The notes beneath the pieces were generated by a model, which made no database searches, had not been told where the DNA came from, and was given only the letters and a program-made list of their open reading frames with translations. Positions 44,558 to 59,527 of a stretch of 64,000 nt of DNA are shown one piece after another; position 1 is the stretch's first letter; each line of letters starts with the position of its first letter. Position numbers and translations under genes: made by a program. This stretch comes from Leucobacter triazinivorans (lineage in GTDB: Bacteria > Actinomycetota > Actinomycetes > Actinomycetales > Microbacteriaceae). The stretch lies in NCBI RefSeq assembly GCF_004208635.1, contig NZ_CP035806.1:1674001-1738000 (forward strand), written 5' to 3'.

Positions 44558-44558
44558 C

Positions 44559-44753
44559 TCACTCTGCGGCGTGGTCGCCTATCTGTGTGTCGGGTGCGGG
44601 GATCTTGACGTTCGCTCCCGCGATGATGTTGGTGGTGATCCAGCCGAGGGCGACGCCCATCGTGGCGAGGTCGTCCGCGATGTAGGCGAGTACCGCGATG
44701 ATGCTCGCGGCGATGGTGGCGATGCTGTAGAGGGCGAGGCGGGTCCAGTGCAT
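44559..44753 (-). CDS. holin-like small membrane protein
   Basis: A 64-residue protein with one or two hydrophobic helices (about 5-25 and 30-46) and a charged C-terminus. It is the last gene of the late block, next to a second small membrane protein and the M23 lysin, which is the usual place of a holin. No sequence family can be assigned. Confidence 0.55.
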   Translation of the reverse strand: MHWTRLALYSIATIAASIIAVLAYIADDLATMGVALGWITTNIIAGANVKIPAPDTQIGDHAAE

Positions 44754-44755
44754 GG

Positions 44756-45648: not shown

Positions 45649-46169
45649 TAGAGGCCTGCCTTCACGATGCGCCAGGTGAAATGGCACGCGGTTTGTGTGG
45701 CGGCCTGCACGATCATGTGACGGAGCGAGAGCGTGGTGCGGTCGGCGTGGCGCGTGTGGCCGATGAGCGAGACGAACGTAAACCCGGACGAGGGGGGCGC
45801 GTGTCCGACGAGGATGGTTTCATCGAGGGCGAGCACGGTGGGGATATCTACGATGACGGTGCGCACGTAGAGCGTGATGGGGCCGGATGCTCCGCCCAGA
45901 TCCCACGAGGCGGCAGGGCCGGAGGCGTAGCCTTCGTGGAGTCGCCATTTGCCGTCCGGGCCGGTGGAGTAGAGGCGCTGGTCTCCGTCGGTGTCCTGCC
46001 ACATCGCCCCGGCTGGTGCGGGGTCGAGCGCGTCGCGATTCGCCCCCGGCCCAGACAGGTACGTCATCGCATCCGAGATGGAGCCCTGGCCGAGATTGAG
46101 GAGGTCGGAGAACGTTGCTTCGTCGTCGGCTTCGGTGTACTGATGGATGCCTTTGAGGTCGAGCGGCAT
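45648..46169 (-). CDS. tail-tip or receptor-region protein of unknown family
   Basis: A 173-residue protein. The N-terminus ('MPLDLKGIHQYTEADDEATFSDLLNLGQGSISDAM') is like the start of phage minor tail or fibre proteins; the C-terminal ~80 residues are beta-rich. AGAAAGGAC precedes the ATG. It sits between the tail protein and the lysin, the usual place for host-contact proteins. Function is inferred only from position. Confidence 0.6.
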   Translation of the reverse strand: MPLDLKGIHQYTEADDEATFSDLLNLGQGSISDAMTYLSGPGANRDALDPAPAGAMWQDTDGDQRLYSTGPDGKWRLHEGYASGPAASWDLGGASGPITLYVRTVIVDIPTVLALDETILVGHAPPSSGFTFVSLIGHTRHADRTTLSLRHMIVQAATQTACHFTWRIVKAGL

Positions 46170-46184
46170 GATGTGTGGTCCTTT

Positions 46185-47465
46185 CTAGATGACGTCGCGG
46201 AAGCCGAATGTGGTTTCGGCGTCGGGGTAGGTGTGGGTGAGGGTGGCGAGTGTGCCGTGGTGGACGGGCACGACCGGGGTGCCGTGCGCGTCGTACGGGG
46301 GTAGGCGGACCTCGACGCGGTGCCCGGGGCGCAATCCGAGCTGCACGGTGGCGTGTGCGGTGGCGCGTCCTGCACGGGTGCGGGATCGGGTGACGAGCTG
46401 CTCGGCGGCGCCGGGGAGGTGCCGGATCCCGGGGCGGGTCTCGTGGAGGATGCGGGTTGCACCGGGCATCATGTACACGTCCCAGCGGCGCGGGTCGAGG
46501 GGCTCCGCGTCGAGGTACTCGACCATCGCCCCGTCGTAGTAGGCGGTCTCGTAGTCCGTGACGGGCTCCCACCGGCTCAGGTTGTCGGTCGCGTCGAGGA
46601 TGACCGGCGCGGTCTCCGTGCTGCGGGGGTGGAGGCGGTGCAGGCCGTCGGTGTCGGCGTAGAGCGTCCATCCCACGGCCTCCAGGATCGGCTGCAAAAA
46701 CTCCCACGCGCTGACGGCGGGGTCCCAGAGCGCGGATTCTGGGATCGCGATATCCGGGCCGGGATGCAGACCGATCGAGTAGACCGGGTTCGAGCCTGCG
46801 GCGATCTCGGTGAGCACCTCATGCACGACCTGCCGCAGCGAGAACCTCTCGGTGAACGTCTTCGCGGTGGTGCTGGTGCGGCGGTAGTCGTGTAGGCGGG
46901 TGTCCTCTCCCGCGACCTCGTAGACGATGGTGCCCTCCTGCGCAGACGGGAGGATGCGGCGCACGCGCAGCCGGAGCAGGAGCCGCTCGGTGGGGCGGAT
47001 CCGGTACGAGCCGCCCGCGACGCGCAGCCGCCCCGTGATCGCATCCACATCCCCTGCGTGGTCGGTCGTGACCGCCGCCACCGCACCACCCCAAAGGCCG
47101 GTCGCGGTGGAGAGGGGTTCGATGTGCTCGCCCGGGTTCCACGGTCGGGTGAGATCCTCCCGCCACCTGGCGACACTGCCCCCAAACCGGGCCGTGAGCG
47201 CAGCGCACGAGCCGCCCGGGTCGCCGTCACCTGCGACACCCAGCATCGGCCCGTACCGGGTCACTAGCTCCAGTGTGATCGTGTCGCCCTGGTGTTTCCA
47301 GAGGAGCCCGCCGGAGAGGTCGGCGGTATCGGGGACGGTGATCGTGCCCTGCATACGGGGCGACCATTCTTCGTCCATGCTCAGGGATACGCTGATCGGC
47401 TCGGCCAGTGGGGCGAGCGTGATCCGCTCCAGCAGGCGCGCCGAGACCGCACGGATCGGGATCAC
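46185..47465 (-). CDS. minor tail protein
   Basis: A 426-residue protein, beta-rich: 'LAEPISVSLSMDEEWSPRMQGTITVPD', 'GEDTRLHDYRRTSTTAKTF', 'YSIGLHPGPDIAIPESALWDP' and 'GHRVEVRLPPYD'. The pattern is that of siphophage tail-hub or baseplate proteins downstream of the tape measure. Start GTG 47465 overlaps the previous gene by 4 nt (GTGA). The exact role is not identified. Confidence 0.7.
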   Translation of the reverse strand: MIPIRAVSARLLERITLAPLAEPISVSLSMDEEWSPRMQGTITVPDTADLSGGLLWKHQGDTITLELVTRYGPMLGVAGDGDPGGSCAALTARFGGSVARWREDLTRPWNPGEHIEPLSTATGLWGGAVAAVTTDHAGDVDAITGRLRVAGGSYRIRPTERLLLRLRVRRILPSAQEGTIVYEVAGEDTRLHDYRRTSTTAKTFTERFSLRQVVHEVLTEIAAGSNPVYSIGLHPGPDIAIPESALWDPAVSAWEFLQPILEAVGWTLYADTDGLHRLHPRSTETAPVILDATDNLSRWEPVTDYETAYYDGAMVEYLDAEPLDPRRWDVYMMPGATRILHETRPGIRHLPGAAEQLVTRSRTRAGRATAHATVQLGLRPGHRVEVRLPPYDAHGTPVVPVHHGTLATLTHTYPDAETTFGFRDVI

Positions 47466-47818
47466 TGCCCGACCTCCCGCACCTCAGCGGTCACGATCCA
47501 CACCGCCGCATTCTCCGGGTCCAGCTCGCGGCGCACCGTACCGACCACGGCATACTGCATCGAGTGCGTGGGCCTGCCCTCCTCGGTGATCGAGAGGATG
47601 CCCGGGCGGGCGTGCATCTGCTCGCACGCCTCGCTCTCCGCCTCCGAATTGAACAGCAACGCGACCGCGACACGGCGGGGGGTTGCGGGGGCGACCGTCA
47701 ACGCGATGCCGCCACTGAGGAGGGTGTGTTCGCGGGTGTTGCTGTCCCGGTCGGACACGTACTGCATCCACACCTTCGGGTGCAGCGTCGTCACACCATC
47801 AGAAATCGTTGTCGTCAC
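47462..47818 (-). CDS. distal-tail region protein
   Basis: A 118-residue protein beginning 'MTTTISDGVTTLHPKVWMQY', with a beta-rich body. It comes directly after the tape measure, where distal tail proteins are usually encoded, though it is shorter than most. GTG 47818 overlaps the tape measure stop by 4 nt. No family recognised from sequence. Confidence 0.6.
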   Translation of the reverse strand: MTTTISDGVTTLHPKVWMQYVSDRDSNTREHTLLSGGIALTVAPATPRRVAVALLFNSEAESEACEQMHARPGILSITEEGRPTHSMQYAVVGTVRRELDPENAAVWIVTAEVREVGQ

Positions 47819-49503
47819 GGTACGGGCTTCCCTTCCCTCGTCCGAACATCCGCCGTCACCTGCACAGTGCGCGCGCGGGTCAAGCGGTTCAGGGCCTGCT
47901 CTGCCGCCCACGTCGACGCCTGTGCGGTGATCTTCGCGGTGCGATTCCGGGCCACTGAGCGCAGCGCCGACGAGGCCAGCGTCGTCTGCGCCTTCGCGGT
48001 GATCTTCGCGGTGCGCTTCTTGTCTGCCACGCCGTCGAGGTCACGGGCCGCGGTGCGGGTCTCCGCGCTCCCCTTGATCGTGGTATCACGGTCTGCGGAG
48101 GCCGCTTCGAGCGCACTCACCGCGCCCTCAGTGTCTGCCTCGCCGGTCATCTTCGCGGTGATCGGGGTTCCATCGACGATGGACTGCCCGCCGTCGAGCA
48201 TCGCTCGGAGCTGCTCGACGTACTGCTCGTCGTACCCCCCGTTGATGAGATCTTGCAGCATCGGCGCGAAATCTAGACCCTTGTCGAGGATCGCCTGTAC
48301 CTCGTCGTGAGAGAGCCCGAATCTGCTCGCGAGATCCTGAACATTCGAGTTGAAATTTGCGGTGGCATCCATCCGGGCCTGCATCGCCGCGAGATACCCG
48401 GCTGGATCAGTGGCCCCGGTCTCTGCGTCGATGAAATCGCCGTACGATCCGATTGCATCGTTCAGCTCACCCTGGAGCGAATCGATAGCTTCGGCCTTCG
48501 CCTCATAGGCAGGACCGTTCGATGCGAGCCAGGCGGCCTCTTCGGCCTCGGCTTCCTCCGCGGCAGTGCTGGCCTTCTCTAGCCCGTCAACGATGGTGCG
48601 CAGGCCGTCGCGCTGGTCTCGGAGGTTCTTGGTCTTCTCCTGGTCCCAGCGCTTATCCTGGTTGTAGCTGGTTTCTGCGGCGGCGAGTCGTTCCTTCTCG
48701 GCTTCGAGCATGTCGCGCAAGCCCTCGGTGTTCCCGGCGTAGGCGTCGGCGAGGCGCTGGAATCCGGTGGCGCTGCCCTCTGCGGCGGCCCGGAGATCTG
48801 CGAGGGAGGTTTCGCCTTCCTCGCTCTCGGAGGCGAGATCTTTGAGGCCCTCGACTATGGCGTCGAGCTGCGCTACAGGGTCGCCGCCGATCTCGATGAG
48901 CTGGCCTGCGAGTTCGCCCACGCGGTCGCGCATGTCTTGCGCTGCCTCTTCTCCCTCTTCGAGCGAGGCCATGATCATGCCGATACCGATTGCACCCGCC
49001 GCGCCTGCGGCCATGCCGACTGGGCCGAGCGCCGAGATTACACCGCCGAAGGTATCTTGAGCGATCTGCGCGAAGTCTTCGGCCTCGCCACGGAACGACG
49101 AGAACGTTTCGGACATGTTCTGCACAGCTTCATCGCCGAACTCGGTGACGGCCTCGCTCGCTCCCGTTGCTCCGTCGCGCATGTCGGAGCGCATCGCGTC
49201 TGAGGCGTCCCCGGTCTCGCGGCGGGCGGTGTCGGCCATGTCTTTGAAGGTGCGTTCGAGGCGCTCGACGCTCTGCTCGGCGTCCTTCGCGCCGTCGCTG
49301 ATCTCATCGCCGATCTTGTCGCCTGCGCGCTTGGCGTCCTTGGCTGCGTCGGTGAGCGCGTCGCCGGTCTTGTCACCGGCTTTCTTCGCGTCCTTCGCTA
49401 CGTCATCGAGCGTGTCGGCCACATCATCGAGGGCTTCCTCCATGTCGTTCGTGCCCTTGAGAAAGCGGACCACGTTTGATAGGAACTTGATCTCGATTGC
49501 CAT
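47815..49503 (-). CDS. tail tape measure protein
   Basis: A 562-residue protein, the longest of the prophage. The N-terminal third is Asp/Ala/Lys-rich coiled coil with heptad-like 'DDVADTLDDVAKDAKKAGDKTGDAL' text. A hydrophobic glycine-rich segment 'GPVGMAAGAAGAIGIGMIMASL' near 175-196 follows. The C-terminus has repeated 'RTAKITAKAQTTLASSALRSVARN'-type units. Such proteins set tail length and line the tube. At about 1.5 Angstrom per residue it predicts a short tail. GGAGA precedes ATG 49503. Confidence 0.88.
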   Translation of the reverse strand: MAIEIKFLSNVVRFLKGTNDMEEALDDVADTLDDVAKDAKKAGDKTGDALTDAAKDAKRAGDKIGDEISDGAKDAEQSVERLERTFKDMADTARRETGDASDAMRSDMRDGATGASEAVTEFGDEAVQNMSETFSSFRGEAEDFAQIAQDTFGGVISALGPVGMAAGAAGAIGIGMIMASLEEGEEAAQDMRDRVGELAGQLIEIGGDPVAQLDAIVEGLKDLASESEEGETSLADLRAAAEGSATGFQRLADAYAGNTEGLRDMLEAEKERLAAAETSYNQDKRWDQEKTKNLRDQRDGLRTIVDGLEKASTAAEEAEAEEAAWLASNGPAYEAKAEAIDSLQGELNDAIGSYGDFIDAETGATDPAGYLAAMQARMDATANFNSNVQDLASRFGLSHDEVQAILDKGLDFAPMLQDLINGGYDEQYVEQLRAMLDGGQSIVDGTPITAKMTGEADTEGAVSALEAASADRDTTIKGSAETRTAARDLDGVADKKRTAKITAKAQTTLASSALRSVARNRTAKITAQASTWAAEQALNRLTRARTVQVTADVRTREGKPVP

Positions 49504-49994
49504 TAGCGTGTCTCCAGGTTCTTGTTGCCGCGGGCGAGGCCCTTTACGATGCCGTTTACCCAGGCGGCGACGATGCGGGGGCCGACCTTGCGGGCTGCGG
49601 GGAAGGCGACTTTGCCGCGCTGTTGACGGGGGCCGAAGTTTCGGCCTGCGATCTGTGTGCGGCGGTTGCCGCGGATCGACACCTCGACGCGCTTGGGGTT
49701 CGCGCCGAACTCTGCACCGTGCCACTGCGTTGCGGGGTTGAGCCCGCCTGAGAGGGAGCGGCGGGAGGTCGCGGCGAGCATCTGGAAGTTGTCGGAGCCG
49801 ACCTTGGCGCGTGCACCGCGCACGATCACCTTCTGCTGCTGCGCGGTCTTCGCGAACTGCTGGAGGGTGGGCTTCCAGGTCGCATTGAGTTCGCGCCGCG
49901 CGCCCGCCCGCATCTCTTTGCGGACGGGCGCGGCGGCAGTCTTGAGCAACAGGATCACGGCCTGTAGCTCGGGAGACTTGCGAACGTCGAGCAT
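49503..49994 (-). CDS. tail-region protein, position of tail assembly chaperone
   Basis: A 163-residue, strongly basic protein starting 'MLDVRKSPELQAVILLLKTAAAPVRKEM' with 'GLNPATQWHGAEFGANPKRVEVSIRG' later. It lies between tail tube and tape measure genes, where chaperones are normal, yet no -1 frameshift partner is visible. It also resembles HK97-gp10-like neck proteins in being basic and of similar size. Its end overlaps the tape measure start by one base. Confidence 0.6.
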   Translation of the reverse strand: MLDVRKSPELQAVILLLKTAAAPVRKEMRAGARRELNATWKPTLQQFAKTAQQQKVIVRGARAKVGSDNFQMLAATSRRSLSGGLNPATQWHGAEFGANPKRVEVSIRGNRRTQIAGRNFGPRQQRGKVAFPAARKVGPRIVAAWVNGIVKGLARGNKNLETR

Positions 49995-49998
49995 CGGC

Positions 49999-50418
49999 TT
50001 ACGGGCCTGCCGGGGTGCGCACGAGGGTGGGCTTGGTGGAGCCCATCGTGACGGTGAACTCGTTGTACGCGCCGACCGCGCCGCCGATCTCCGGGGACAC
50101 GATCTTGATATCGGAGATGAAAGACACCTCGCCGTCATGGTGGGGCTTGTACTCCACCTCGGCGGTCTCACCTTCGTGCTCCAGCAGGAAGTTGCAGAGC
50201 GACGTGGCCGTCTCCCAGTCCTGAATGCCGGTGAGCTCGAACGTGTAGGTGGGGGCCGTCTCGTCGGTGAACACGGCGTCGGGGGTGCCGCCGCGCCATT
50301 CCTGCATGCTGGAGGTGCGCGCGTACCGACAGTTGTTCACGTGCTTGGAGAAACTGTCTTCGCCGACCTTGAGGGTGATCTGCTTGACGAGTCGAGCGTT
50401 GACGGGCTGTTCAGCCAT
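49999..50418 (-). CDS. major tail (tube) protein
   Basis: A 139-residue protein: 'VNARLVKQITLKVGEDSFSKHVNNCRY', 'FELTGIQDWETATSLCNFLLEHEGETAEVEYKP' and 'EVSFISDIKIVSPEIGGAVGAYNEFTVTMGSTKPTLV'. The last part is the beta-sandwich signature of siphophage tube proteins. AGGAG lies before the ATG. Its place between the connector genes and the tape measure supports the call. Confidence 0.82.
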   Translation of the reverse strand: MAEQPVNARLVKQITLKVGEDSFSKHVNNCRYARTSSMQEWRGGTPDAVFTDETAPTYTFELTGIQDWETATSLCNFLLEHEGETAEVEYKPHHDGEVSFISDIKIVSPEIGGAVGAYNEFTVTMGSTKPTLVRTPAGP

Positions 50419-50431
50419 GATGGTGCTCCTT

Positions 50432-50806
50432 TTAGTTGTAGAAGTCTTCGGTGATGGTGAGGGAGTAGCCGGGGAGATCCGGCGCGCCGTCCGTGCCCTC
50501 TCGCGCGCCGGGTTCGGCGGCGTCGAGCGGGAGCGGGGAGGCAATCAGGGCGTCGAGAATCGGGTCGATAGCGCCCATTGCGTCGAGCGCATCCCCGGCC
50601 TTGCCGAGCACCCAGACGGTCCAGGTGCAACGGGTGACCTGCGGCACCGGGAACTCCAGGCGCGGGGCCGGGTGGACGAACACGACACCCTCCGCCTGGC
50701 GGCGCTTGTCGAGGTCGCGGGCGTCACTCGTGACGGGGACGCCCTCGGGCACGTGCTCCGCGATGGTGTCGCGGATCTGGGCGAGTCGTTCGGTGCGAGT
50801 GCTCAT
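50432..50806 (-). CDS. tail terminator-like protein
   Basis: A 124-residue protein with an N-terminal helix 'RTERLAQIRDTIAEHVPEGVPV' and a beta-rich end 'GYSLTITEDFYN'. Size and place, directly before the tube gene, fit tail terminator proteins. The ATG overlaps the upstream connector stop by 4 nt. No residue-level signature was recognised. Confidence 0.6.
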   Translation of the reverse strand: MSTRTERLAQIRDTIAEHVPEGVPVTSDARDLDKRRQAEGVVFVHPAPRLEFPVPQVTRCTWTVWVLGKAGDALDAMGAIDPILDALIASPLPLDAAEPGAREGTDGAPDLPGYSLTITEDFYN

Positions 50807-51135
50807 CGTGAGATCCCAGGGGTCGCGTAGGGGGCAAGCATCGGATACACCGTGCTCATGGGGTCTTTCGAGATCCGCATCGGGACCACCTCTCCGCTGC
50901 CGAATGTCGTGATCCCGTTCCGGGCGAGGCGACGGTAGAACACCGCCGCCCCGCACTCGGTCACAGCGAGCGCCCCCACCATGGCCGGGATCGCCGCCGA
51001 GCCTGCCGCGCCCAGGTGACGGGTCACCATGTCGAGCGCGGCGCGAGCGTCTGCGCTCACGCTCTCATCGCTGGGGTCTTCCTCAAGGTGCTTGGCGAGC
51101 GCCTGCACGGCCTGGGCTTCGGTGGGAAGTGGCAT
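50803..51135 (-). CDS. head-tail connector-like protein
   Basis: A 110-residue protein; the N-terminal half is helical ('EAQAVQALAKHLEEDPSDESVSADARAALDMVTRHLG'), as in HK97 gp6-type adaptors, and the rest is less regular. It follows the capsid gene by 3 nt. The call is from size and order. Confidence 0.6.
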   Translation of the reverse strand: MPLPTEAQAVQALAKHLEEDPSDESVSADARAALDMVTRHLGAAGSAAIPAMVGALAVTECGAAVFYRRLARNGITTFGSGEVVPMRISKDPMSTVYPMLAPYATPGISR

Positions 51136-51138
51136 GGG

Positions 51139-52749
51139 TCAGACCGCGAAGTCGATGGGGAGGATCGCGTCCGGGATCTCGCAGGCGGTCGCGAGGTAGC
51201 CGTACATGCTGTACGAGCGGGTGAGGTTGGTGACGTTCGCGTCCTCGAGCGAGACGGGCGCGCCCGCGTTCTCGAACGTTGTGATCGCCTGCTCGTTGTA
51301 GAACGCGCCCCTCCCGGTCGCCGCGCCCGGGAGGAGCCGCACGCGGGTGGTGGACACCTGCCCCTCCAGGCCCTCGACCTTCAGCTCGCCGACGCTGTTC
51401 GCCCCGGTGCCGAAGATCTGGAACTGCAGCCGGTCGTTCTGATCGGCGAGCGTGAACAGCTCCTTGAACTTGTCCTTGGAGAGGTAGAGACCCGCGATGG
51501 GGAGGGCGGCGTCATCGAACGCGTCGTGCGCGTCGATGAACAGGGATACCCAGTCTGCGGCCTTCGGGGAGGCGATCAGGTCGAGGTTGTGCCCCGCGGT
51601 GATGTTGTCGGTGATGGTGGTGGTGAGCAGGGCGCGCACCTCGGCCTCGGTCTGCTGCGCGTAGGCGATTGCCTGCGCGCGGCGGGTGAGGTTCAGCAGG
51701 GAGATGTCGGCGCGCTCGACAGCCTGGAACGACAGCTCCGACCAGCCGCCGTACGTGCCGACCGGCGCAGTGTCCGACCCAACGGACACCTGCCCCTTCG
51801 CCAGCTCGTCGCCTTCCGCGGCCTGCTTGTCGACCTGCACGGTGTTGGACTCCAGCACGCCGTACTCGATCTGGGTTCCCGTCGCGGGGAGCGGCGCGGT
51901 CTGGAAGCTGTTGAGCACCTTGCGGGGCTTGTCGATCAGGCGGATCACGTCACCGATCCAGGGGGCCTTCGCGATGGTATCCGCGATCACGCCGCCGTCA
52001 TAGGCGCGCTGCTCGTGCAGTGAGGCACCGGCTGCGGCTTCGGTGTAGGCGGTGTGCAGGGCGCGGGCCTCGGTGTCGCCGCGGTGGTAGGCGCGGATGA
52101 ACTCGCCGAAGCTGCGGAACTGGACCGCGGGCCGCTCGGGCTGCGGGCTGCTGACCTGCGCGAGCTGCGCCTGCACGGAGCGGATCTGCTCGGACAGCTC
52201 GGAGCGGTGGGCGTCGAAGTCCTCGCGCGTGATCGCGTCGGTGGTGGGGGGCATGGGGGTTCCTTCCTTGGGGGTCTGGCTGCGAACGTCGGTGACGACC
52301 GCATCGGTGTAGACGGGGTTGTCGGTCAGGCTGAACTCACGCACGCGCACCCGGGTGTGACGGATGGTGAAGCTGCCGTCCTCGTGGTCGGTGCGCTCGT
52401 ACTCGATGGGGGTGAAGCCGATGGAGAACGAGTCCAGGGCCTCATCGTTGGCGAGGGTCAGGGCGTCGTTGCCGTGCGTCGTCTCCGACACGTAGCCGGT
52501 GATGTCGAGCTTGCCGGGGGCTCGGGTCGCGGTGCGGGTGACGCCGATGAGGGGGCCGTGGTCGAGCTTGAGCTTGGCGCGCTCCAGGTTGTCGAACTCG
52601 CAGTCCTGCGCGAATAGCTCGTTAAAGCCGGGGTACACCTGCGTCTCGACTTCGAGGGGCACGCCGATGCCGAACACCTCGCGCTTGGGCACGTCGGCGA
52701 CGGCGCGGGCCTGGAATGTGCGGGTCTGGGTCGCGGTGGGATCAAACAT
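51139..52749 (-). CDS. prohead protease fused to major capsid protein
   Basis: A 536-residue fusion. Residues about 1-160 are a U35/HK97-type prohead protease: 'FGIGVPLEVETQVYPGFNELF', the catalytic His in 'KLDHGPL', Ser in 'LDSFSIGFTPIEYE', then 'VREFSLTDNPVYTDAVV'. A helical delta-like region follows ('REDFDAHRSELSEQIRSVQAQLAQ', about 185-210). The HK97-fold capsid covers about 225-536 ('FRSFGEFIRAYHRGDTEAR', 'FYNEQAITTFENAGAP'). GGAGACC precedes ATG 52749; 8-nt overlap with portal. Most phages encode these separately. Confidence 0.87.
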   Translation of the reverse strand: MFDPTATQTRTFQARAVADVPKREVFGIGVPLEVETQVYPGFNELFAQDCEFDNLERAKLKLDHGPLIGVTRTATRAPGKLDITGYVSETTHGNDALTLANDEALDSFSIGFTPIEYERTDHEDGSFTIRHTRVRVREFSLTDNPVYTDAVVTDVRSQTPKEGTPMPPTTDAITREDFDAHRSELSEQIRSVQAQLAQVSSPQPERPAVQFRSFGEFIRAYHRGDTEARALHTAYTEAAAGASLHEQRAYDGGVIADTIAKAPWIGDVIRLIDKPRKVLNSFQTAPLPATGTQIEYGVLESNTVQVDKQAAEGDELAKGQVSVGSDTAPVGTYGGWSELSFQAVERADISLLNLTRRAQAIAYAQQTEAEVRALLTTTITDNITAGHNLDLIASPKAADWVSLFIDAHDAFDDAALPIAGLYLSKDKFKELFTLADQNDRLQFQIFGTGANSVGELKVEGLEGQVSTTRVRLLPGAATGRGAFYNEQAITTFENAGAPVSLEDANVTNLTRSYSMYGYLATACEIPDAILPIDFAV

Positions 52750-53917
52750 TGGTGGTCTCCTGCGTCGGGGTGAGAGCGGCGAGCTGTTCGGGGGTGAGCG
52801 GGTCCAGTCCCTCGATCTCGCGAGCCTCGGGCACGGTGAGGAAGCCGGATCGGATGCCGACCTCGTGGGCCTGGTATCGGGTGAGGGTGTCGGAGCGGTG
52901 CAGGGCGTCCACGTTGAAACGCACGTGATTGCCGTGCGGGATGACGCTGGACAAGGCCTCCTCGATCTCGCGCAGGTACACCATGAGCGTGAACCGGGTG
53001 AAGGCGATCCAGTCCTGCTCAACGTTCGCGTAAGACTGCGAGTTGCCTTCGATCACGGCGAGCATGAGCGAGGCAGGAATGCCGAACAGGCGGGCGATCT
53101 GCGTCGTGTTGAACTGCTGCGTTTCGAGGAACTGGAGATCGGCCGGCTTGATCTGGAGGGGGTCATACTTGAGCCCGTGGCCGAGCACTCGGACGCCGTG
53201 CCCGCTCGGCTCGTACTTGCCCGTCTCGGGATTCCACCCCATCCACCGTTTCTTGTACTCGTCGGCGACATCGCCGTTGAGCTGCTGTTCGGTGGTGAGG
53301 ATCCCGCTGGGAACGTCGCCGCGCTCGAACCAGGTTGACGAGTAGTCGCGTGCCTGCATCGTGCCGGTCAGCTCAACTCGTGCCGCCTCGATGGGGCCGA
53401 GACCCTTTTCGCGCCCAGGCTTCCGGAGCTTCTGGAGATGCACGATATCGCCACCCGTGCGGTCGCCGGGGGCGAGTTCGAGGCCGCGCCAGTAGAACTT
53501 GACGCGGCCCGTCTTTTCGTCGCGCACCGGGGACACCTCGGCGGGGTTGAGGGGTTGGAGGCAGATGGGCTCGCGGTTCATGCCTCGCAGGATGCGCCAG
53601 TAGGCGTTGCCGTCGAGCGCGAGCGACACGACCGACCATTCGAGGAACGCGGGCCGGTGCGTCTCGGTGTCGGGCTTCACGATGATGGACGCGGGCGAGG
53701 TGCGCCGGTCGCCCCGCCACTGGTCCAGGCCGAGCTGCGAGACGCCGATCTGGAGCACCTCTACCGCCCGGTAGACATCCAGGATGAGCATCGCCGTGGT
53801 GTCGTTGAGGACGTGCTGGCGGGGCGGCGGCATGATCGCGGGCGGAGCGCTCGGCGTATCCTCGGCGGAGCGCTTGGCGAAGCCGATGAGTTCGGCAGTG
53901 CGCTGCATGATTCCCAT
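52742..53917 (-). CDS. HK97-type portal protein
   Basis: A 391-residue portal. 'ILDVYRAVEVLQIGVSQLGL' near 45, 'LEWSVVSLALDGNAYWRILRG', 'DIVHLQKL', 'QLNGDVADEYKKRWMGW', and the typical 'LQFLETQQFNTTQIARLFGIPASLM' motif near 275-300. It forms the dodecamer at the DNA-entry vertex. Start ATG 53917 with a second in-frame ATG at codon 4. Normal length for a compact actinophage. Confidence 0.92.
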   Translation of the reverse strand: MGIMQRTAELIGFAKRSAEDTPSAPPAIMPPPRQHVLNDTTAMLILDVYRAVEVLQIGVSQLGLDQWRGDRRTSPASIIVKPDTETHRPAFLEWSVVSLALDGNAYWRILRGMNREPICLQPLNPAEVSPVRDEKTGRVKFYWRGLELAPGDRTGGDIVHLQKLRKPGREKGLGPIEAARVELTGTMQARDYSSTWFERGDVPSGILTTEQQLNGDVADEYKKRWMGWNPETGKYEPSGHGVRVLGHGLKYDPLQIKPADLQFLETQQFNTTQIARLFGIPASLMLAVIEGNSQSYANVEQDWIAFTRFTLMVYLREIEEALSSVIPHGNHVRFNVDALHRSDTLTRYQAHEVGIRSGFLTVPEAREIEGLDPLTPEQLAALTPTQETTNV

Positions 53918-53960
53918 GCCCAGAATGCTCGCGGCCCGTCAACCGGATCACCTAGCGCGA

Positions 53961-54000
53961 ACGCTCACCAGCGCTCATGAGCGCTCACCAACGCTCATTA
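53961..54000. repeat. four 10-nt CGCTCA repeats with a 16-nt palindrome
   Basis: AACGCTCACC, AGCGCTCATG, AGCGCTCACC and AACGCTCATT follow without gaps. The centre AGCGCTCATGAGCGCT (53971-53986) is a perfect palindrome. It is one of the few non-coding stretches in the phage late block, between terminase and portal. Confidence 0.75.
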
Positions 54001-54015
54001 AGCTACACATGTTTG

Positions 54016-55479
54016 TTACACCCAGAGCTGCACGCCGGGGTCCTCGGGCAGGTTGTCGAGGCCGTGCGATGAGAGGGTGGCGGCTTCGAGCGCGGCGATG
54101 GAGCCGACCGACGCGCGACGCCCCCACACCCATGCGCCGTCTTGGATCCAGCGGCGCGCGGCGAGGTCTGCCGCGTGCTCCAGCGCGTCGTGCGAGCGGA
54201 AGTGCCACTCCCCCGTCTCAAGTCCCGTGATGACCTGCTGGCAGGCCGCGACCACGTAGTTGGTGCGCACGTCGAGCAGCGGGATACCGGCGTTCGCGGC
54301 GTTCTGGCGGAGCGCTGCGGAGGGGCCTCGGTCGTCGATAGCGACGTGCACGGGCCTGCCCGCGTTCGCTTGCAGCTCTTTGAGGCGCAGCAGCGCCCAG
54401 GCGGACCCGTCCCGCCAGCCGTTCGGGATGACTTCGGTGATCTTCCCCAGCTCGGGGTGGATTCCCGAGATCGTGATTGCGGCGTCTACGCCGTCCACGC
54501 CGACCGCCGCGCCGACGCACACGGGCGAGTCCTCGGGGATCTTCTCTAGGGTGCGGCCCGCGTTCCACAGGGTCGCGGGGATCACCCGTTCGCTGGAGCC
54601 GGTGCGCCGGTTCCCGAAGGCGCGCGCGAAGCCGTTCGCGTCGTTGCCGAACTCGCCGCGGAACTTCTGGAGGTCGCGCATGTCGAACAGATGCCGATAG
54701 CCGGGGTGCCACTTCGCGATGCCCTCAAGGTCTTCGGGGTCCATGTCGTCGGGGATCCCGAAGTCAACGAAGAACGTGCGCACGGGCGCACCGCTGCGGC
54801 ACTCGTCCAGGATCGGGTTGAACCAGGTCGATTCGATGGTGCCCTCGGTTGACATGATCCAGGTCTGCGGCTGGTGGCCGGTGAGCATGCGCCGGGTGGT
54901 CGTGGTCGGCGTGATCGCCTGCATCAGGTCGCGGCCCTCGCGCTCGGTGAATGCCCACGCCTCATCGATGGTGTTCTTGTCCGACTGCTTGGAGTGCAGG
55001 TTCTCGGGGCCGGGGGCGTGCGGCCTCCACTCCGAGCCGTTGATGAAGCGCACCAGCTCGGAGCCGTTGCCGCGCAGGTACTTCGACACGAGCCCGGTCC
55101 CGATGCCGCCGATGGGCGACTTCTCTAGTACGTCTTCCATCTCGCGGAACTTCTCGCGTGCGTGCGTGCCGTCCTGCGCGGTGTACCATGCGCGCCGGTT
55201 CGGCCCCATCATGCAGTTGCGGGTTGAGTCGATCGCATCCATCGTGGTCTTCCCGAACTGGCGCTGCACGGTGACCACGACGCGCCCGTAGTAGAGCGTC
55301 CCGGTCTCTGGGTCGATCTCGGACGCGCCCGCGAGCACGTATTCCTGCGCTGGGATCAAGGGCCATCCCATCGCCTGCGCGATAGCTGCGTTATGGCGTA
55401 GCAGGGTCGGGCGTTCCGGGTTCAGAGGGGTCGCCTGCCGGGGGCTGGGCATAGGACGCTGGGTCAACGGCGAGAGCAT
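54016..55479 (-). CDS. terminase large subunit
   Basis: A 487-residue packaging ATPase-nuclease. The ATPase half has a deviating Walker A 'VTVQRQFGKTT' near 68-78, 'NTIDEAWAF' as Walker B and 'GHQPQTWIMSTEGT' (coupling motif). The nuclease half has 'GVDGVDAAITISG' and 'AIDDRGPSAALRQ' with acidic metal ligands. It packages DNA into the prohead through the portal. ATG 55479 lies inside the small-subunit gene (89-nt overlap); a TTG one codon earlier or ATG 55452 are alternatives. Confidence 0.92.
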   Translation of the reverse strand: MLSPLTQRPMPSPRQATPLNPERPTLLRHNAAIAQAMGWPLIPAQEYVLAGASEIDPETGTLYYGRVVVTVQRQFGKTTMDAIDSTRNCMMGPNRRAWYTAQDGTHAREKFREMEDVLEKSPIGGIGTGLVSKYLRGNGSELVRFINGSEWRPHAPGPENLHSKQSDKNTIDEAWAFTEREGRDLMQAITPTTTTRRMLTGHQPQTWIMSTEGTIESTWFNPILDECRSGAPVRTFFVDFGIPDDMDPEDLEGIAKWHPGYRHLFDMRDLQKFRGEFGNDANGFARAFGNRRTGSSERVIPATLWNAGRTLEKIPEDSPVCVGAAVGVDGVDAAITISGIHPELGKITEVIPNGWRDGSAWALLRLKELQANAGRPVHVAIDDRGPSAALRQNAANAGIPLLDVRTNYVVAACQQVITGLETGEWHFRSHDALEHAADLAARRWIQDGAWVWGRRASVGSIAALEAATLSSHGLDNLPEDPGVQLWV

Positions 55480-55783
55480 CAATTAGGGCCTTCATTTCGG
55501 GGGTGAAGCCTGCCGCGTTGCCTTCCTCGGCGGTCAGCTTCTCGATGAGCGGGGTGAGCTGCGCAGCGGCCTGCACAGCGGCGATAGCGGACTTGGGTTG
55601 CTCGATGATGTGCGCCAGTCGCATGGCCGTGGCGCACATCACTTGCTTCGCGGCGGTCATGGTGCCGTTCTCGCGGATCTCGGCGATCAGCGCGCGAACC
55701 GCTTCGACTTGCAGAGAATCCCCCGGTTTCGGGTCGGTTTCGCCGTCGAATAGGTCGAGCGTCAGCGCGGTCCGGTCAACCAT
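55391..55783 (-). CDS. terminase small subunit-like protein
   Basis: A 130-residue protein: acidic start 'MVDRTALTLDLFDGETDPKPGDSLQVEAVRALIAEI', then helices 'MTAAKQVMCATAMRLAHIIEQPKSAIAAVQAAAQLTPLIEKL', and a Pro-rich end. Size and place before the large subunit fit the DNA-recognition subunit. GGAGG lies 7 nt before the ATG. The 3' end overlaps the large-subunit gene. Confidence 0.72.
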   Translation of the reverse strand: MVDRTALTLDLFDGETDPKPGDSLQVEAVRALIAEIRENGTMTAAKQVMCATAMRLAHIIEQPKSAIAAVQAAAQLTPLIEKLTAEEGNAAGFTPEMKALIDALAVDPASYAQPPAGDPSEPGTPDPATP

Positions 55784-55883
55784 TTCGGGCCTCCGTCCTG
55801 GGATTTTTTTGTAGGGGTTCGGGGAGAGAAAAGGGAGGGGAGCGCATGGGTGTCGGGGCATCGCGCACGGAAAAACGGGCCGG

Positions 55884-56627
55884 TCACCATGCGCGCGACG
55901 GCTCCGCTTGCTGCTCGCTCGCTTCGTCTCGGCTGACCGATGCGACCGGGCGAGTGGAGGCGATGCGCTCGACCGATGCCACGCCCTCGGGGTAGCGCGT
56001 ATACCATCGAGCCACGCCTTGCAGGCTGTCGTGCGGGCGGAGCTTGCGCACCCGTGCCTCCACCTCGGCGCGGCCCGGGTCGAGGGTGACGACGCGGTAG
56101 CGCAGGCGTGCGTACTGCTGGAGCTGGTCACGTGCTGGCACGGCGTGGATCAGCCACACGGTGCAGGGGTAGCGGGTGCGCAGTGCCCGGTGCATCGCGG
56201 CCTTTCTGGCGCCGATAGCGATGTTCCTGATGTGGGGCGGGTAGCCGTGCCGGTCGTTCACATCACCCGGCATGAACGCGCTGGCGATGCGGTCGAGGTC
56301 GATCACGATGTCCTTGGGCTTCGCGTTCTCGCGCACATAGGACGACTTGCCAGCAGCTGGCGGACCCGTCACGACGACCACGCTGATGCCGTGCGGGTCC
56401 GCTCCACTGATCGCGAGATCCTGCCGCTTCCCGTTGCACTTGTTGCAGGCGGGGCGCAGGTTCTCCATGCTGTCATCGCCGCCCAGGTTCACCGGGATCA
56501 CGTGATCCTTGGTGGTCGCACGCTTCGTGCACCCGGGCAGGTTCAGCCAGCACACAGGCCCGTAGTAGTCGATCACGGCCCGGGTCAGCTTCTGGTTCTC
56601 GGTGCCGCCCCGATGCCCGCTAGCCAC
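55884..56627 (-). CDS. HNH endonuclease fused to P-loop kinase
   Basis: A 247-residue fusion. Residues about 5-75 are an HNH nuclease with zinc cysteines and 'TKDHVIPVNLGGDDSMENLRPACNKCNGKRQD'. Residues about 85-247 start with Walker A 'VVVTGPPAAGKSSY' and 'IVIDLDRIASAF', with a later 'DPGRAEVEARVRKLRP', as in zeta-toxin or polynucleotide-kinase-like P-loop kinases. HNH proteins next to terminases help cos cleavage in HK97-like phages. The kinase part might act on DNA ends. GTG 56627 overlaps the upstream gene by 8 nt. Kinase substrate unknown. Confidence 0.82.
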   Translation of the reverse strand: MASGHRGGTENQKLTRAVIDYYGPVCWLNLPGCTKRATTKDHVIPVNLGGDDSMENLRPACNKCNGKRQDLAISGADPHGISVVVVTGPPAAGKSSYVRENAKPKDIVIDLDRIASAFMPGDVNDRHGYPPHIRNIAIGARKAAMHRALRTRYPCTVWLIHAVPARDQLQQYARLRYRVVTLDPGRAEVEARVRKLRPHDSLQGVARWYTRYPEGVASVERIASTRPVASVSRDEASEQQAEPSRAW

Positions 56628-56823
56628 GGCCCGGACCCTTCGCGCGCGCCTCCAGGTAGGCGTTGATCGAGGCACGCGAGTACCGGGGGAAGCGGCCCAC
56701 GTACGTGTACGCGGGGCCGCGCCCACGGTTCCGCATCTGCTCCAGCGCCCGCTTCGAGATCCCGAGCAGCACAGCCGCTTCCTCAGTCGTCATCAGCCGC
56801 ACCGGAGCCTTCACCGCGCTCAT
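56620..56823 (-). CDS. helix-turn-helix (excisionase/MerR-like) protein
   Basis: A 67-residue protein: 'LMTTEEAAVLLGISKRALEQMRNRGRGPAYTYVGRFPRYSRASINAYLEAR' is the winged-HTH of phage excisionase-type proteins (helix_turn_helix_17). It could be Xis or a DNA-binding partner of packaging. The ATG 56823 overlaps the stop of a 35-residue ORF upstream (ATGA), which supports this start. Confidence 0.78.
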   Translation of the reverse strand: MSAVKAPVRLMTTEEAAVLLGISKRALEQMRNRGRGPAYTYVGRFPRYSRASINAYLEARAKGPGRG

Positions 56824-56927
56824 GCTCGCGGCCCCCGATCCGTCGCCAGGCACCACACGACCATGCCGAGCATGGCGAGCAGCAGCAGCGACGAGCCGAC
56901 GCCGGTCGTCGTGAGTAGCGTGTACAT
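56820..56927 (-). CDS. 35-residue membrane peptide
   Basis: MYTLLTTTG, a hydrophobic stretch 'SSLLLLAMLGMVVWCLA' and a basic tail. It is held in place by coupling signals on both sides: its ATG shares one base with the upstream stop (TGATG) and its stop overlaps the next start (ATGA). No function known. Confidence 0.55.
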   Translation of the reverse strand: MYTLLTTTGVGSSLLLLAMLGMVVWCLATDRGPRA

Positions 56928-57157
56928 CAGTGCCCCCTCTCGATCCACGACAGCGCGGCGAAGATCAGGAGCACGATGACCGCCACGATTCCGACGGTGA
57001 GCATTGCCAGGCCAACCACGGCCAGGGCACCGACCATGCCGTAGTACGTCACCTCGCCTACCTCGATGCCCGCGAACCAGCCGCCAGCACCGAAGCCTCC
57101 GACGTAGATGATCGCGACAAGCACGCCAACCACCCAGGCGCGAGCCCGGGCGCTCAT
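56927..57157 (-). CDS. small prophage membrane protein with two helices
   Basis: A 76-residue protein with hydrophobic segments about 8-28 and 40-70 separated by 'AGIEVGEVTYYG'. GGAGG is before ATG 57157. It overlaps both neighbours. No family recognised; early membrane proteins of this kind are common in actinophages. Confidence 0.6.
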   Translation of the reverse strand: MSARARAWVVGVLVAIIYVGGFGAGGWFAGIEVGEVTYYGMVGALAVVGLAMLTVGIVAVIVLLIFAALSWIERGH

Positions 57158-57417
57158 GCGATCCTCCGGTCCCTCGCGCGGCGGGGCAGGGTCGCCCCGG
57201 CCGGTGCGGACTCGTCGCGCATGCGCTCGTAGGCGGGGTGCAGGCGAGCTTTCCGGGTCGCGTATACGGGGCCGGTGCGGCCCCTCGCGCCGATGATGCT
57301 GCGGGGCGTCACAGCGAAGTAGGGCCAATGCCCGTGCTTGTCGGCGTATGCCTTCGCGTCGGCCTGGTCAGCGGCGATGATGATGTCGACGTATCGGCGG
57401 GGTGCAGGCTTGCTCAT
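57154..57417 (-). CDS. prophage protein of unknown function
   Basis: An 87-residue basic protein, 'RRYVDIIIAADQADAKAYADKHGHWPYFAVTPRSIIGARGRTG'. The pattern resembles small conserved proteins of actinophages with no known role. AAGGACC precedes the ATG; the stop overlaps the next start by 4 nt. Confidence 0.6.
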   Translation of the reverse strand: MSKPAPRRYVDIIIAADQADAKAYADKHGHWPYFAVTPRSIIGARGRTGPVYATRKARLHPAYERMRDESAPAGATLPRRARDRRIA

Positions 57418-57668
57418 CGGTTGGTCCTTCGGTTGTGGTCGGCGAGGGTCTTGGAGAGTGCCGCGTGCCAACGGTCGAGGTCGGCCACCATGCCGGGGAT
57501 GGGCTCGGGTGCGCTCTCGGGGTGGCGGGCGGTGGTGTAGGAGACACCGATGACTGCCCAGAGCGTCGATATCGTGTCTTCGGGCATCATCACGCCTTGC
57601 TCGCCGGACTTGAGCATGAGGTCGGCGAGCTTGTCAGCGGCTCGGGTGAGTGCGGTAGGGGTGCTCAT
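57414..57668 (-). CDS. prophage protein of unknown function
   Basis: An 84-residue helical protein, 'MSTPTALTRAADKLADLML...DTISTLWAVIGVSYTTARHP'. Overlaps the next gene by 4 nt. Its ATG 57668 shares one base with the stop of the upstream gene. No family recognised. Confidence 0.6.
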   Translation of the reverse strand: MSTPTALTRAADKLADLMLKSGEQGVMMPEDTISTLWAVIGVSYTTARHPESAPEPIPGMVADLDRWHAALSKTLADHNRRTNR

Positions 57669-57985
57669 CAGGGGGCCTCCGGGGTGTAGAACTCGCAGTC
57701 GGGTGTGTTGCGGTGAGGTCCGAGATCGCGGCATCCGCCGCACCGCTCGACGCGGCGGCTGGCATGGCTCTCGTGGACTTCGTTCATCAGCTCGGCGTCG
57801 AGGTCGGCGAGCATCTTGTACGCGGCCTGCATCGCCTCGGCGTGCGATGCCGACCATTCGACGCGGCGGATGTCGGTAGTCAGGAGATCCTCGGGCTCGA
57901 CGCCGATGACGGTCGACCACGGGTTAGAGCCGGGTGGCCAGGCCATTGAGGCGCGGAACACGAATGCGCGGAGCTTGATCGTCAT
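57668..57985 (-). CDS. prophage protein with C-terminal zinc-binding cysteines
   Basis: A 105-residue protein. The body is helical ('EWSASHAEAMQAAYKMLADLDAELMNEVHES') and the end has 'RCGGCRDLGPHRNTPDCEFY', a likely zinc-knuckle (CxxC...H...C). It overlaps the replication-type gene by 4 nt. Function unknown. Confidence 0.6.
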   Translation of the reverse strand: MTIKLRAFVFRASMAWPPGSNPWSTVIGVEPEDLLTTDIRRVEWSASHAEAMQAAYKMLADLDAELMNEVHESHASRRVERCGGCRDLGPHRNTPDCEFYTPEAP

Positions 57986-58914
57986 GCTGTGAGTTCCAAT
58001 CCGTTGATGATGTCGGCGGCTTCCTCGCCGCAGCGGGCGCAGCCGGTGAGGGTGGGCGGGACGAGGTGGCGTGAGCCGGAGCCGGTGCCGAAGCCCTCGG
58101 GGCACTGGAGCCGGTTGGCGGCTTCGTTCATGGCGCGCTGCTCGGGTGACTGCACGGGAGGCTTTGCGGGGACGCTGGCGGGATCGAAGCGTGGCGGCAC
58201 CACTGCGGGCGGCACCATAGAGCGACTGCTGCCAGCTCGGCTGAGGTCGGGCCGCTTCACGGGCTGGTGTCGCTGCTCGGCGTCGGCGGCTTGCCGTGCG
58301 GCCTCGGCGATCTTCTGGCCGGGGTGCCAGTCTGCGTACCCGCTCGCCTCATCGGTGGAGACGCTTTCGCGGTCGTTCGCGTGCGACTCCCGGGCTGTAG
58401 TTCCAGAGTTCCCCATAGGTGGATGGTTAAGGGACGGTTCGGCGGGGCTGTGGCCCCGGGGGGTACGGGGCTGTGGCCCCGGGGCGGGGCTGTGGCCCCG
58501 GGGGTCTTCCGTGGAGTTATCCACAGGGATAAGGCGGTGCTGCGCGGAGCGGTCGCACTCGGGCGGGCAGGCGAGCAGGATGCGGTAGAGGTTCGTGCGC
58601 TCGTGCTCGGGCTTGCCCTGCACGCCGCCGTTGGTGATCACCTCGACCTCGCCGAGCGCTTCGAGCTTGCGCACGGCTTCGCGTGCGGCCTTCTTGGCGT
58701 TCTCGCGGCGCTTGCGTGCGGCCTTCTTGGCCTCGGGGGTGTCGTCCTCGGGCTCGGCGTCCCAGCCCTCGAACCCGGCGTACTTGGCAAGGGTCAGCGT
58801 CGCGGGGTAGCTGCCGCCGTCGCCGTCGTGGTTCGCGATCCCGATGAGCACGAGCTTGGCGCTGCCCTTGGCACGCGAGTGGTGCAGAGCGAGCGCGAGA
58901 GCTTCGACGCTCAC
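57982..58914 (-). CDS. winged-helix protein, probable phage replication initiator/organiser
   Basis: A 310-residue protein. The N-terminal ~120 residues form a replisome-organiser-like winged helix: 'ALALHHSRAKGSAKLVLIGIANHDGDGGSYPATLTLAKYAGF', a charged helix, and 'AVRKLEALGEVEVITNGG'. A long Pro/Ser/Arg-rich linker with repeated 'PRGHSPA' units follows. The end holds a zinc motif CxxC ('GCARCGEEAAD'). It is the only replication-like gene in the phage, so it may recruit the host helicase. GTG 58914 overlaps the upstream stop. Confidence 0.68.
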   Translation of the reverse strand: MSVEALALALHHSRAKGSAKLVLIGIANHDGDGGSYPATLTLAKYAGFEGWDAEPEDDTPEAKKAARKRRENAKKAAREAVRKLEALGEVEVITNGGVQGKPEHERTNLYRILLACPPECDRSAQHRLIPVDNSTEDPRGHSPAPGPQPRTPRGHSPAEPSLNHPPMGNSGTTARESHANDRESVSTDEASGYADWHPGQKIAEAARQAADAEQRHQPVKRPDLSRAGSSRSMVPPAVVPPRFDPASVPAKPPVQSPEQRAMNEAANRLQCPEGFGTGSGSRHLVPPTLTGCARCGEEAADIINGLELTA

Positions 58915-59090
58915 GACTCCCCCGCCTCGGACTCGGCCTGATCCTCGGTGAACAGGTGCGCGCCACTGGCGAGCGTCGCGGCGGGCTCGATCCGGCCTTC
59001 GCGCACGGCTCGGCTGATTGCCTGCCGCGTCACACCGCGGCGTGCAGCCACCTCACGAGTCGTGAGGAGTTTTGGGAGCATCGTTGTCAT
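58911..59090 (-). CDS. small HTH protein divergent from the repressor (Cro/excisionase-like)
   Basis: A 59-residue protein starting MTTMLPKLLTTREVAARRG with the HTH 'VTRQAISRAVREGRI' near 20-34 and an acidic tail. It is the first gene of the leftward lytic block and faces the repressor across 95 nt, the usual place of Cro or Xis. Its stop overlaps the replication gene start (GTGA). Two ATG codons three apart could start it. Confidence 0.72.
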   Translation of the reverse strand: MTTMLPKLLTTREVAARRGVTRQAISRAVREGRIEPAATLASGAHLFTEDQAESEAGES

Positions 59091-59185
59091 AGGACCACGA
59101 TAGGTAAGAAATTACACGGTTGTCATTTCGACACGCCGAGTGGGAACTTTGTTGTCAAGTGACTACGTTGTGTCAGAATTGGGGC
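59091..59185. promoter_or_regulatory. prophage switch region between cro-like and repressor genes
   Basis: AT-richer than its surroundings. TTGTCA appears at 59085-59090 (minus-strand start region shares it), 59133-59138 and 59152-59157, with GTCA-ag-TGAC at 59154-59163 and GTGTCA at 59170-59175. These repeated half-sites are candidate repressor operators over divergent early promoters. Confidence 0.55.
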
Positions 59186-59521
59186 ATGACGATGCAGATG
59201 ACACCGCAGAGGGCACGCGCAATCCCGGAGTTTGAATTGACGGACCGCCTGCGCCGAGCACGCGAGTACGCGGGCATGGATCAGATCGAGCTAGCCGAAG
59301 CTCTCGGTATCTCGCGCAACTCCGTGGGCAACTACGAGAACGGCCGCAGGAGGCCCACGCGGCCGTACCTGATCGCGTGGGCCGACGTTACCGGAGTCGA
59401 TCAGAGCTGGCTGGAAACAGGAAAGGCCCCCGTCACGGATGACGAGGGCCAGGAGAGCCGCCTGTCGGATTTGAACCGACGACCTGTTCTTTACGAGGGA
59501 ACTGCTCTACCCCTGAGCTAA
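59186..59521 (+). CDS. XRE/Cro-CI-type immunity repressor whose 3' end is set by the attachment site
   Basis: In the prophage it is 111 residues. Residues about 18-75 are an XRE HTH: 'LRRAREYAGMDQIELAEALGISRNSVGNYENGRRRP'. Residues 90-103 (ESRLSDLNRRPVLY) are encoded by the att core, and the last 8 (EGTALPLS) by the host part of tRNA-Thr read antisense. In the excised circle the frame would run on into 42309-42380, giving 126 residues with a different 23-residue tail ending VNAR. This matches integration-dependent immunity, where only the shorter prophage form is a stable repressor. Shares coding space with a tRNA terminator. Confidence 0.85.
   Translation: MTMQMTPQRARAIPEFELTDRLRRAREYAGMDQIELAEALGISRNSVGNYENGRRRPTRPYLIAWADVTGVDQSWLETGKAPVTDDEGQESRLSDLNRRPVLYEGTALPLS
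59425..59450 (-). terminator. phage-supplied terminator for tRNA-Thr
   Basis: Minus-strand reading: GGCCCTCGTCA-tccg-TGACGGGGGCC, an 11-bp stem with one G-U pair, placed as the host terminator at 42239-42263 is relative to the tRNA core. It lies inside the repressor coding region on the opposite strand. Confidence 0.7.
59453..59494. other. attR, 42-nt core
   Basis: Identical to 42267-42308. To its right the host's 5' part of tRNA-Thr continues; to its left is phage DNA. The core covers the 3' 39 nt of the tRNA plus 3 nt. Confidence 0.95.
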
Positions 59522-59527
59522 GGCGGC
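59456..59527 (-). tRNA. tRNA-Thr (anticodon CGT), 3' half restored by the prophage
   Basis: Minus-strand GCCGCCT...AGGCGGC-T acceptor stem of 7 bp, D-arm GCTC-AGGGGTA-GAGC, anticodon loop CTCGTAA carrying CGT, T-arm GTCGG-TTCAAAT-CCGAC. CCA is not encoded. Bases 59456-59494 come from phage, 59495-59527 from host. The cloverleaf is complete, so integration keeps the gene functional. Confidence 0.95.

Follow-up and report, generated by a model that had tools for sequence, protein, structure and literature searches.

A probable integration-dependent immunity switch in a Leucobacter prophage, with a terminator-like hairpin antisense in the repressor codons

What becomes of a prophage repressor whose gene runs through the phage attachment site and stops inside a host tRNA gene, and how does a phage that inserts at the end of a tRNA gene avoid a collision between transcription of the tRNA and that of its own repressor? 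Both questions are raised by one locus of Leucobacter triazinivorans, which we analysed within a stretch of 64,000 nucleotides (hereafter, the window), and the second is one that we have not found discussed elsewhere. Our answer as a whole, which we consider quite probable, is that the locus is an integration-dependent immunity switch, and that a hairpin lying antisense in the repressor codons terminates transcription of the tRNA. The first part follows the original prediction, which had identified the layout as integration-dependent immunity and was very probably right. The elements on which the argument turns are as follows.

42267 to 42308, plus strand: left copy of the att core (attL), 42 bp.
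42309 to 42380, plus strand: detached 3' end of the viral repressor frame, 23 codons (KVQDWPECPDTVPAWMVEAVNAR) and a TGA stop.
59186 to 59521, plus strand: repressor gene in its prophage form, 111 aa, with a helix-turn-helix (Pfam HTH_31, E 1.4e-15, and HTH_3; phrog_2328, E 2.5e-28).
59453 to 59494, plus strand: right copy of the att core (attR), 42 bp, identical to 42267-42308.
59455 to 59527, minus strand: intact tRNA-Thr(CGT) gene (ARAGORN), the attB gene, transcribed towards the repressor.

The two cores form an exact repeat pair spaced 17,186 bp apart, and the attR copy is part of the intact minus-strand tRNA gene, which gives the overlap of attB with a host tRNA gene that is a feature of integration-dependent immunity. 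The prophage repressor opens with the ATG at 59186, reads the core in frame as 14 codons (residues 90-103), takes its last eight residues (104-111) from host tRNA DNA and ends with the TAA at 59519-59521; the original account of the core, of a stop eight codons beyond it and of a 111-residue product is correct to the base. When the left side of attR is joined in silico to the right side of attL, as excision would join them, the core becomes a predicted attP that the repressor gene reads through in frame, and the frame stays open through 42309-42380, as had been claimed, so that a predicted viral protein of 126 aa with a new 23-residue tail results. Integration accordingly leaves a shorter repressor with a different C-terminus, ended by a stop of host origin. 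The viral TGA (42378-42380) also overlaps the ATG at 42377-42379, the start of the first left-arm gene, as ATGA, just as had been noticed at the outset.

The 17-kb insertion itself is real, because three genomes of the same genus (L020, L024 and L021) have the same flanks joined, contiguous and uninterrupted, around a single tRNA-Thr gene. The original description of a prophage of about 17 kb in a host resembling the Microbacteriaceae is borne out by a 17.2-kb tailed prophage in Leucobacter, a member of that family, with the following contents.

42309 to 59494, no strand assigned: prophage, 17.2 kb, with integrase, endolysin-like, tape measure, tail, connector, capsid, portal, terminase, HNH, replication-like and immunity genes.
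42377 to 42565, plus strand: small ORF of 62 aa with four cysteines, whose start overlaps the viral repressor stop.
42562 to 42816, plus strand: helix-turn-helix (HTH) protein, 84 aa (phrog_686).
42813 to 43658, plus strand: tyrosine integrase, 281 aa, C-terminus RLAA (PF00589, E 3.4e-30).
58911 to 59090, minus strand: divergent small HTH gene, 59 aa, in a Cro/excisionase-like position.
59083 to 59185, no strand assigned: divergent promoter region, with TTGTCA at 59084, 59120 and 59152 and promoter-like sites on both strands.

In the predicted viral circle the integrase lies downstream of the repressor in the same direction, with the two small ORFs between them. The first of these has no Pfam or PHROG match, while counterparts of the second are present in G018, G041, G016 and L. 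chironomi, with none among the G015 ORFs of at least 55 aa that were listed. A PADLOC search with six small ORFs gave no match, and the entire prophage had no nucleotide match among phage records. The three TTGTCA copies between the divergent genes have three counterparts in G018 and are candidate operators; the host genome (3.48 Mb, one contig) holds 15 matches to the phage integrase family; and short tandem-like repeats (CGCGCGTCAGTAGTTGCGG and GCGCGCGAACAGGCC) lie beside attL at 42020-42220.

Might the prophage be defective, and the joined frame no more than a relic? Scans of viral contigs found neither a virion nor a circular copy of it, nor any free circular or virion attP of this prophage group, their matches being the prophage of Leucobacter sp. 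Ag1, a contig starting between attL and the integrase gene, and distant relatives. We nevertheless regard a defective prophage as very improbable, given that head, tail, packaging, lysis, integrase and immunity genes are all present and open and that the 42-bp cores are exact.

If the prophage is intact, is the long repressor frame ever read? Here the relatives are of most help. As had been suggested, we looked for relatives with attP inside the repressor gene, and these are predicted in six Leucobacter genomes as well as in other genera of the Microbacteriaceae. In the same-genus search (54 genomes, E<=1e-6) 16 genomes matched, and in six of the 54, including this one, a near-full-length repressor runs into tRNA-Thr(CGT); of the other ten, nine matched over a short stretch that ends in the tRNA region, and one (G040) matched in its HTH part only. 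The six are the window, G018, G041, G016, G015 and G006, which is L. chironomi (100% match), and their tails read KVQDWPECPDTVPAWMVEAVNAR (window), KDATCPDTAAELLELWAVTAS (G018), KVESCPDFVPAWMVQAVAR (G041), KVEACPDYVPPAWTAAYRTEVAR (G016), KVIGCPDTVDELVALWTVSV (G015) and KDATCPDYVPSWMVEAVNAR (L. chironomi), joined within one contig in five genomes and presumed to join in L. chironomi, where contig C7 carries the repressor and contig C9 the left end with the tail. All six tails contain CPD, and each ends in a stop that shares bases with a potential next start codon (four as ATGA, one as TTGA and one as TGATG); together these make a good case for translation of the long frame in the phage. The ATGA had been put forward as a sign of such translation in its own right, and that claim stands in part: as proof by itself it is rejected, being too weak without relatives, but with the overlap recurring in every tail it becomes stronger. 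The codon changes between tails, synonymous against other, are five to four for the window and G041, two to five for the window and L. chironomi, six to six for G041 and L. chironomi, and one to ten for G018 and G015; few and mixed, with no clear bias to synonymous change, they appear to add little.

Two further observations concern the cores of these relatives. In G018 (L027) attL and attR carry different bases at two core positions that would form a pair in the T-stem of the tRNA, a hint that the crossover lies on their anticodon side, and L. chironomi has a third core-like match (88%, G006:C16:3500-3547) besides those at the repressor end and the left end.

What the tail does is a separate matter. 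An ssrA-like -AA end, a usual though not universal trait according to the available text of PMC8092301, is found in none of the six Leucobacter viral tails, as compared with 15 of the 20 phage repressors examined, and it is because the usual -AA is missing that we only infer the long viral form to be unstable in this prophage, as the original prediction had it. Five of the six tails have alanine in the penultimate position, and the integrase ends in LAA in all six Leucobacter prophages, like the host tmRNA tag (ANAKRTDFALAA), which also ends in LAA. One could therefore argue that protein instability has no part in the matter, and that integration works by splitting an operon, separating the repressor from the HTH and integrase genes, with the tail serving merely to couple translation. 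The stop-start overlap common to the six tails fits such an arrangement, as does the pairing of a tail that has no -AA degron with an integrase that has one. The tail is, however, conserved beyond what coupling needs, as its invariant CPD attests, and in phage BPs the tailed repressor is degraded but is stabilised by A135E, a substitution of its penultimate residue (PMC4557955, in the part available), the very position at which most of the Leucobacter tails have alanine. We therefore think operon splitting alone unlikely and continue to favour inactivation of the tailed repressor; its unusual end raises the question whether a host protease recognises it, and which.

The families to which the proteins belong point the same way. 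For the window repressor and for all six phage repressors tested (those of Angel, from cluster G, and of Brujita, Twister6, SallySpecial, McGonagall and Malithi) the best family is phrog_2328, and it is because this PHROG is common to Angel, Brujita, Twister6 and SallySpecial that we assign the locus to integration-dependent immunity. With the repressor as query, tblastn matched 268 phage records, including 153 of Mycobacterium and 75 of Gordonia, while alignment matches were obtained from L. chironomi DSM 19883, Leucobacter sp. Ag1 and the metagenome-assembled genome LEU1, with a weak and distant one from Sedimentibacter; the integrase has about 40% identity to its counterparts in phages including WST1, BigNuz, Purky and Redi. 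The phrase integration-dependent immunity occurs in the available text of PMC4557955, PMC5559632, PMC5513430, PMC6109161, PMC9262239, PMC8092301, PMC9635641, PMC9934374 and PMC10865867. Excerpts of this literature name mycobacteriophage clusters G, I, N and P, Giles not being among them (PMC4557955), describe the same immunity in phages of Gordonia, M. abscessus and Bifidobacterium (PMC5559632, PMC8092301 and PMC6109161), and also name one Streptomyces phage. Architecture, protein families and relatives all support the layout.

Such agreement also bears on the idea that the overlap is a passive economy, in which both forms repress equally and immunity is independent of integration. A genome of just 17 kb might well be expected to economise, but repressor family and layout match those of phages in which the dependence has been shown by experiment (PMC4557955 and PMC9262239, as far as their available text goes), and the layout recurs in Microbacteriaceae prophages at several tRNA genes, so that we hold this idea to be rather improbable.

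That recurrence comes from a family search of 398 Microbacteriaceae genomes (an even sample including this genome; E<=1e-10), of which 22 had a match. Outside Leucobacter, 15 repressors adjoin a tRNA gene (Thr, Arg, Lys or Asn) on the opposite strand, which together with the six from Leucobacter makes 21. For 12 of the 15 we took 20 kb, G229, G340 and G324 being excluded as too close to a contig end, and a second core was present in 11 of these 12, with prophage lengths of 8.2-17.7 kb; in the twelfth, G252, none was found within the 20 kb. The endings of the joined tails vary, with -AA in two of the 11. Where the target is tRNA-Arg(ACG), the short form stops at the junction itself (TTC TGA) in seven of eight cases, the exception being G085, and this resembles BPs, in which a stop is created at the junction (PMC9262239, in the part available). 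The excepted genome has a peculiarity of its own: its locus L090 (G085:C1:626300-646299) carries two copies of the repressor, separated by about 16.7 kb, which have in common an 82-bp repeat containing the hairpin described below; these are probably tandem prophages at one tRNA-Arg gene. At L087 (G184:C3), an 8.2-kb element has the same repressor-attachment layout and a tail ending in GAAA, and is perhaps a reduced prophage or a satellite with the same switch.

We come now to the second question, that of colliding transcription, for which two further features of the window are needed.

59425 to 59450, minus strand: terminator-like hairpin with an 11-bp stem, antisense in repressor codons 80-89, its T-rich tract opposite codons 77-79.
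42238 to 42264, minus strand: terminator-like hairpin at attL, beside the tRNA fragment; read in frame, it resembles the repressor 3' end.

The first has the layout of an intrinsic terminator, a GC-rich stem followed by a T-rich tract near the tRNA 3' end, with a tract (TTTCCTGTTT) that is imperfect in the window. On the tRNA strand of all six Leucobacter repressor genes there is a GC-rich stem of 11-12 bp lying 2-5 nt past the tRNA end, followed in five of them by TTCCTGTT; among relatives the stem sequence varies on both arms with pairing kept, and loop lengths differ. A larger sample comprised 37 repressor genes, from 21 Microbacteriaceae prophages and 16 phages. Apart from Brujita, which was chosen by name, they were collected through their similarity to the window repressor with its linker, and several, such as those of Twister6 and Wizard or of Pygmy and Fishburne, are closely related, so that they are not independent of one another. 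When synonymous codons were drawn with the protein kept (500 draws per gene), the observed stem was reached in at most 5% of draws in 28 of the 37 genes (18 of the 21 prophages and 10 of the 16 phages), at a threshold (p<=0.05) that is uncorrected over 37 tests, by which about two passes are expected by chance. The exceptions are G229, G324, G235, BigNuz, Typha, Barco, Obliviate, Angel and Brujita. Whole-fold energy gave 29 passes out of 37, with G229, G140, G324, BigNuz, Typha, Barco, Angel and Brujita failing and G235, an exception to the stem test, passing at p 0.002. Strong stems, by a score of at least 26 that was set after the scores were seen, stand beside the tRNA in 28 of the 37 genes and in none of the 271 other 60-nt windows of those genes. 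We therefore reject the possibility that the hairpin is a by-product of the protein sequence, on the strength of the synonymous-codon randomisation and of those other windows.

The hairpin is of course not universal. It is missing or weak in nine of the 37, including Angel (of cluster G, like BPs) and Brujita, which represent the types best studied experimentally, and of four further T-arm repressors outside the 37 one has a strong stem while in three it is missing or weak; for these reasons it is not essential to the switch.

Integrases of integration-dependent immunity systems bind near the core. This lends some colour to the suggestion that the hairpin serves integrase binding, or alternatively the repressor mRNA, since the stem folds on the sense strand too, and that it has nothing to do with termination. 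The orientation and placing of the strong stems speak against both uses: T-richness is higher on the tRNA strand in 24 of 28, facing tRNA read-through (it is equal in three and lower in one), and in these 28 genes the distance from the tRNA end to the start of the stem has a median of 5 nt. Homologous repressors without a T-arm have a strong stem in just one case of nine (Dmitri). Comparable stems, moreover, stand on the displaced attL sides, in what was originally the host's downstream DNA, where one of that strength lies 1-26 nt from the tRNA fragment in 12 of 17 prophages (G016 and G140, for example) and was not found in the remaining five (G018, G041, G015, L. chironomi and G184). A role for the hairpin in the mRNA or in integrase binding in place of termination therefore strikes us as doubtful, and we keep to a tRNA terminator as the better reading. 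Integration appears often to leave the native terminator 8-18 kb away, with the tRNA given a new one within the repressor gene.

The attL side of the window offers an observation of its own. Nominally host DNA at 42225-42266, to the left of attL, reads in the repressor frame as ETGTAPTETVEAEESRL, like the repressor 3' end, and the tRNA-Thr trailers in L017, L018 and L020 read similarly; this could be either the scar of an earlier prophage or a sign of common ancestry of the host terminator and the repressor linker.

We lean, with some reserve, towards a general form of the idea, namely that many such repressors hide a phage-supplied tRNA terminator, the linker before the core (here codons 77-89, ETGKAPVTDDEGQ) being, when read antisense, a hairpin and T tract that replace those of the host. 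If so, each integration swaps two gene ends at once: the repressor gives up its tail and receives a stop codon from the host, and the tRNA gives up its host terminator and receives one that lies inside the repressor. Such a swap would keep transcription of the tRNA from working against repressor expression, and it could account for the recurrence of the ETGxAP linker. The word 'terminator' is absent from the main text of PMC4557955, PMC5559632, PMC6109161, PMC9262239, PMC8092301, PMC9635641, PMC9934374, PMC10865867 and PMC10023795, and in the portion of the full-text literature available, a scope outside which the founding paper, Broussard et al. 2013, falls, we found no report of an antisense tRNA terminator in a repressor. 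The available text of the literature on Leucobacter prophages and repressors likewise yielded nothing on integration-dependent immunity or on the hairpin.

How, then, might the switch operate? In the phage circle, the repressor gene would run through attP into the 23-residue tail, and the overlapping start would lead from the tail into a small operon ending in the integrase gene. The tailed repressor would probably be inactivated, most likely by proteolysis, and lytic growth would therefore not be blocked. The integrase would recombine the core with tRNA-Thr(CGT), so that tail and integrase operon come to lie 17 kb from the repressor gene; this gene would now be closed by a stop from the host tRNA sequence, and its short product may keep the divergent lytic promoter off. 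The same event would separate the tRNA gene from its own downstream terminator, upon which the hairpin and T-rich tract antisense in the repressor codons before the core would probably terminate the tRNA transcript and so protect the repressor gene from opposing transcription.

The switch is a clean case of a genetic decision made by DNA rearrangement, and its range is widened here from mycobacterial, Gordonia and bifidobacterial phages to Leucobacter and other genera of the Microbacteriaceae, in prophages mostly of 15-18 kb. If the hairpin does terminate, then one short stretch of DNA encodes the repressor linker, the tRNA 3' end and the tRNA terminator together. This is a known kind of switch in a new host group, with a tail whose end differs from the customary tag; what seems to be new is the hairpin within the repressor, which concerns many members of this kind, not all.

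Comparison with known systems makes the point concrete. Mycobacteriophages of clusters G (BPs, Angel), I (Brujita), N and P likewise have attP in the repressor 3' end and attB in a tRNA gene, with repressor and integrase co-directional in that order, a divergent small gene and a short prophage form, and the repressors of Angel, Brujita and Malithi belong to the same PHROG as ours. Unlike them, the window has two small genes separating repressor from integrase, its prophage form gains eight host residues, its viral tail ends in NAR and not in -AA (Angel's in KAS, Brujita's in HAA), and it has the antisense hairpin that Angel and Brujita lack. Another parallel is offered by small Gordonia phages, among them SallySpecial, with a genome of 15.9 kb, in which tail genes, integrase, repressor and divergent HTH gene follow in the same order, with repressor and integrase co-directional and the tail genes beyond the integrase, as in the window. 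Its repressor is about 46% identical to ours, and both it and McGonagall have the antisense hairpin, although their tails, unlike that of the window, end in -AA. GMA5, a Gordonia phage that shares cluster CW with McGonagall, has an extra gene between integrase and repressor, as does the window (PMC5559632, in the part available). The small Bifidobacterium prophages Bb423phi2 and 689b-1 resemble it in that their tails too were restored by joining ends in silico, but those tails, of 18 residues with ssrA-like tags, set them apart from it by description (PMC6109161, from excerpts). Prophages of M. abscessus, which were matched here solely by integrase (tblastn), supply further precedents in the available text of PMC8092301: among MabB, MabC, MabH, MabK, MabN and MabO there are tails without ssrA-like tags, host-encoded residues (seven, in MabB), an integrase gene several genes away and a tRNA gene transcribed towards the repressor.
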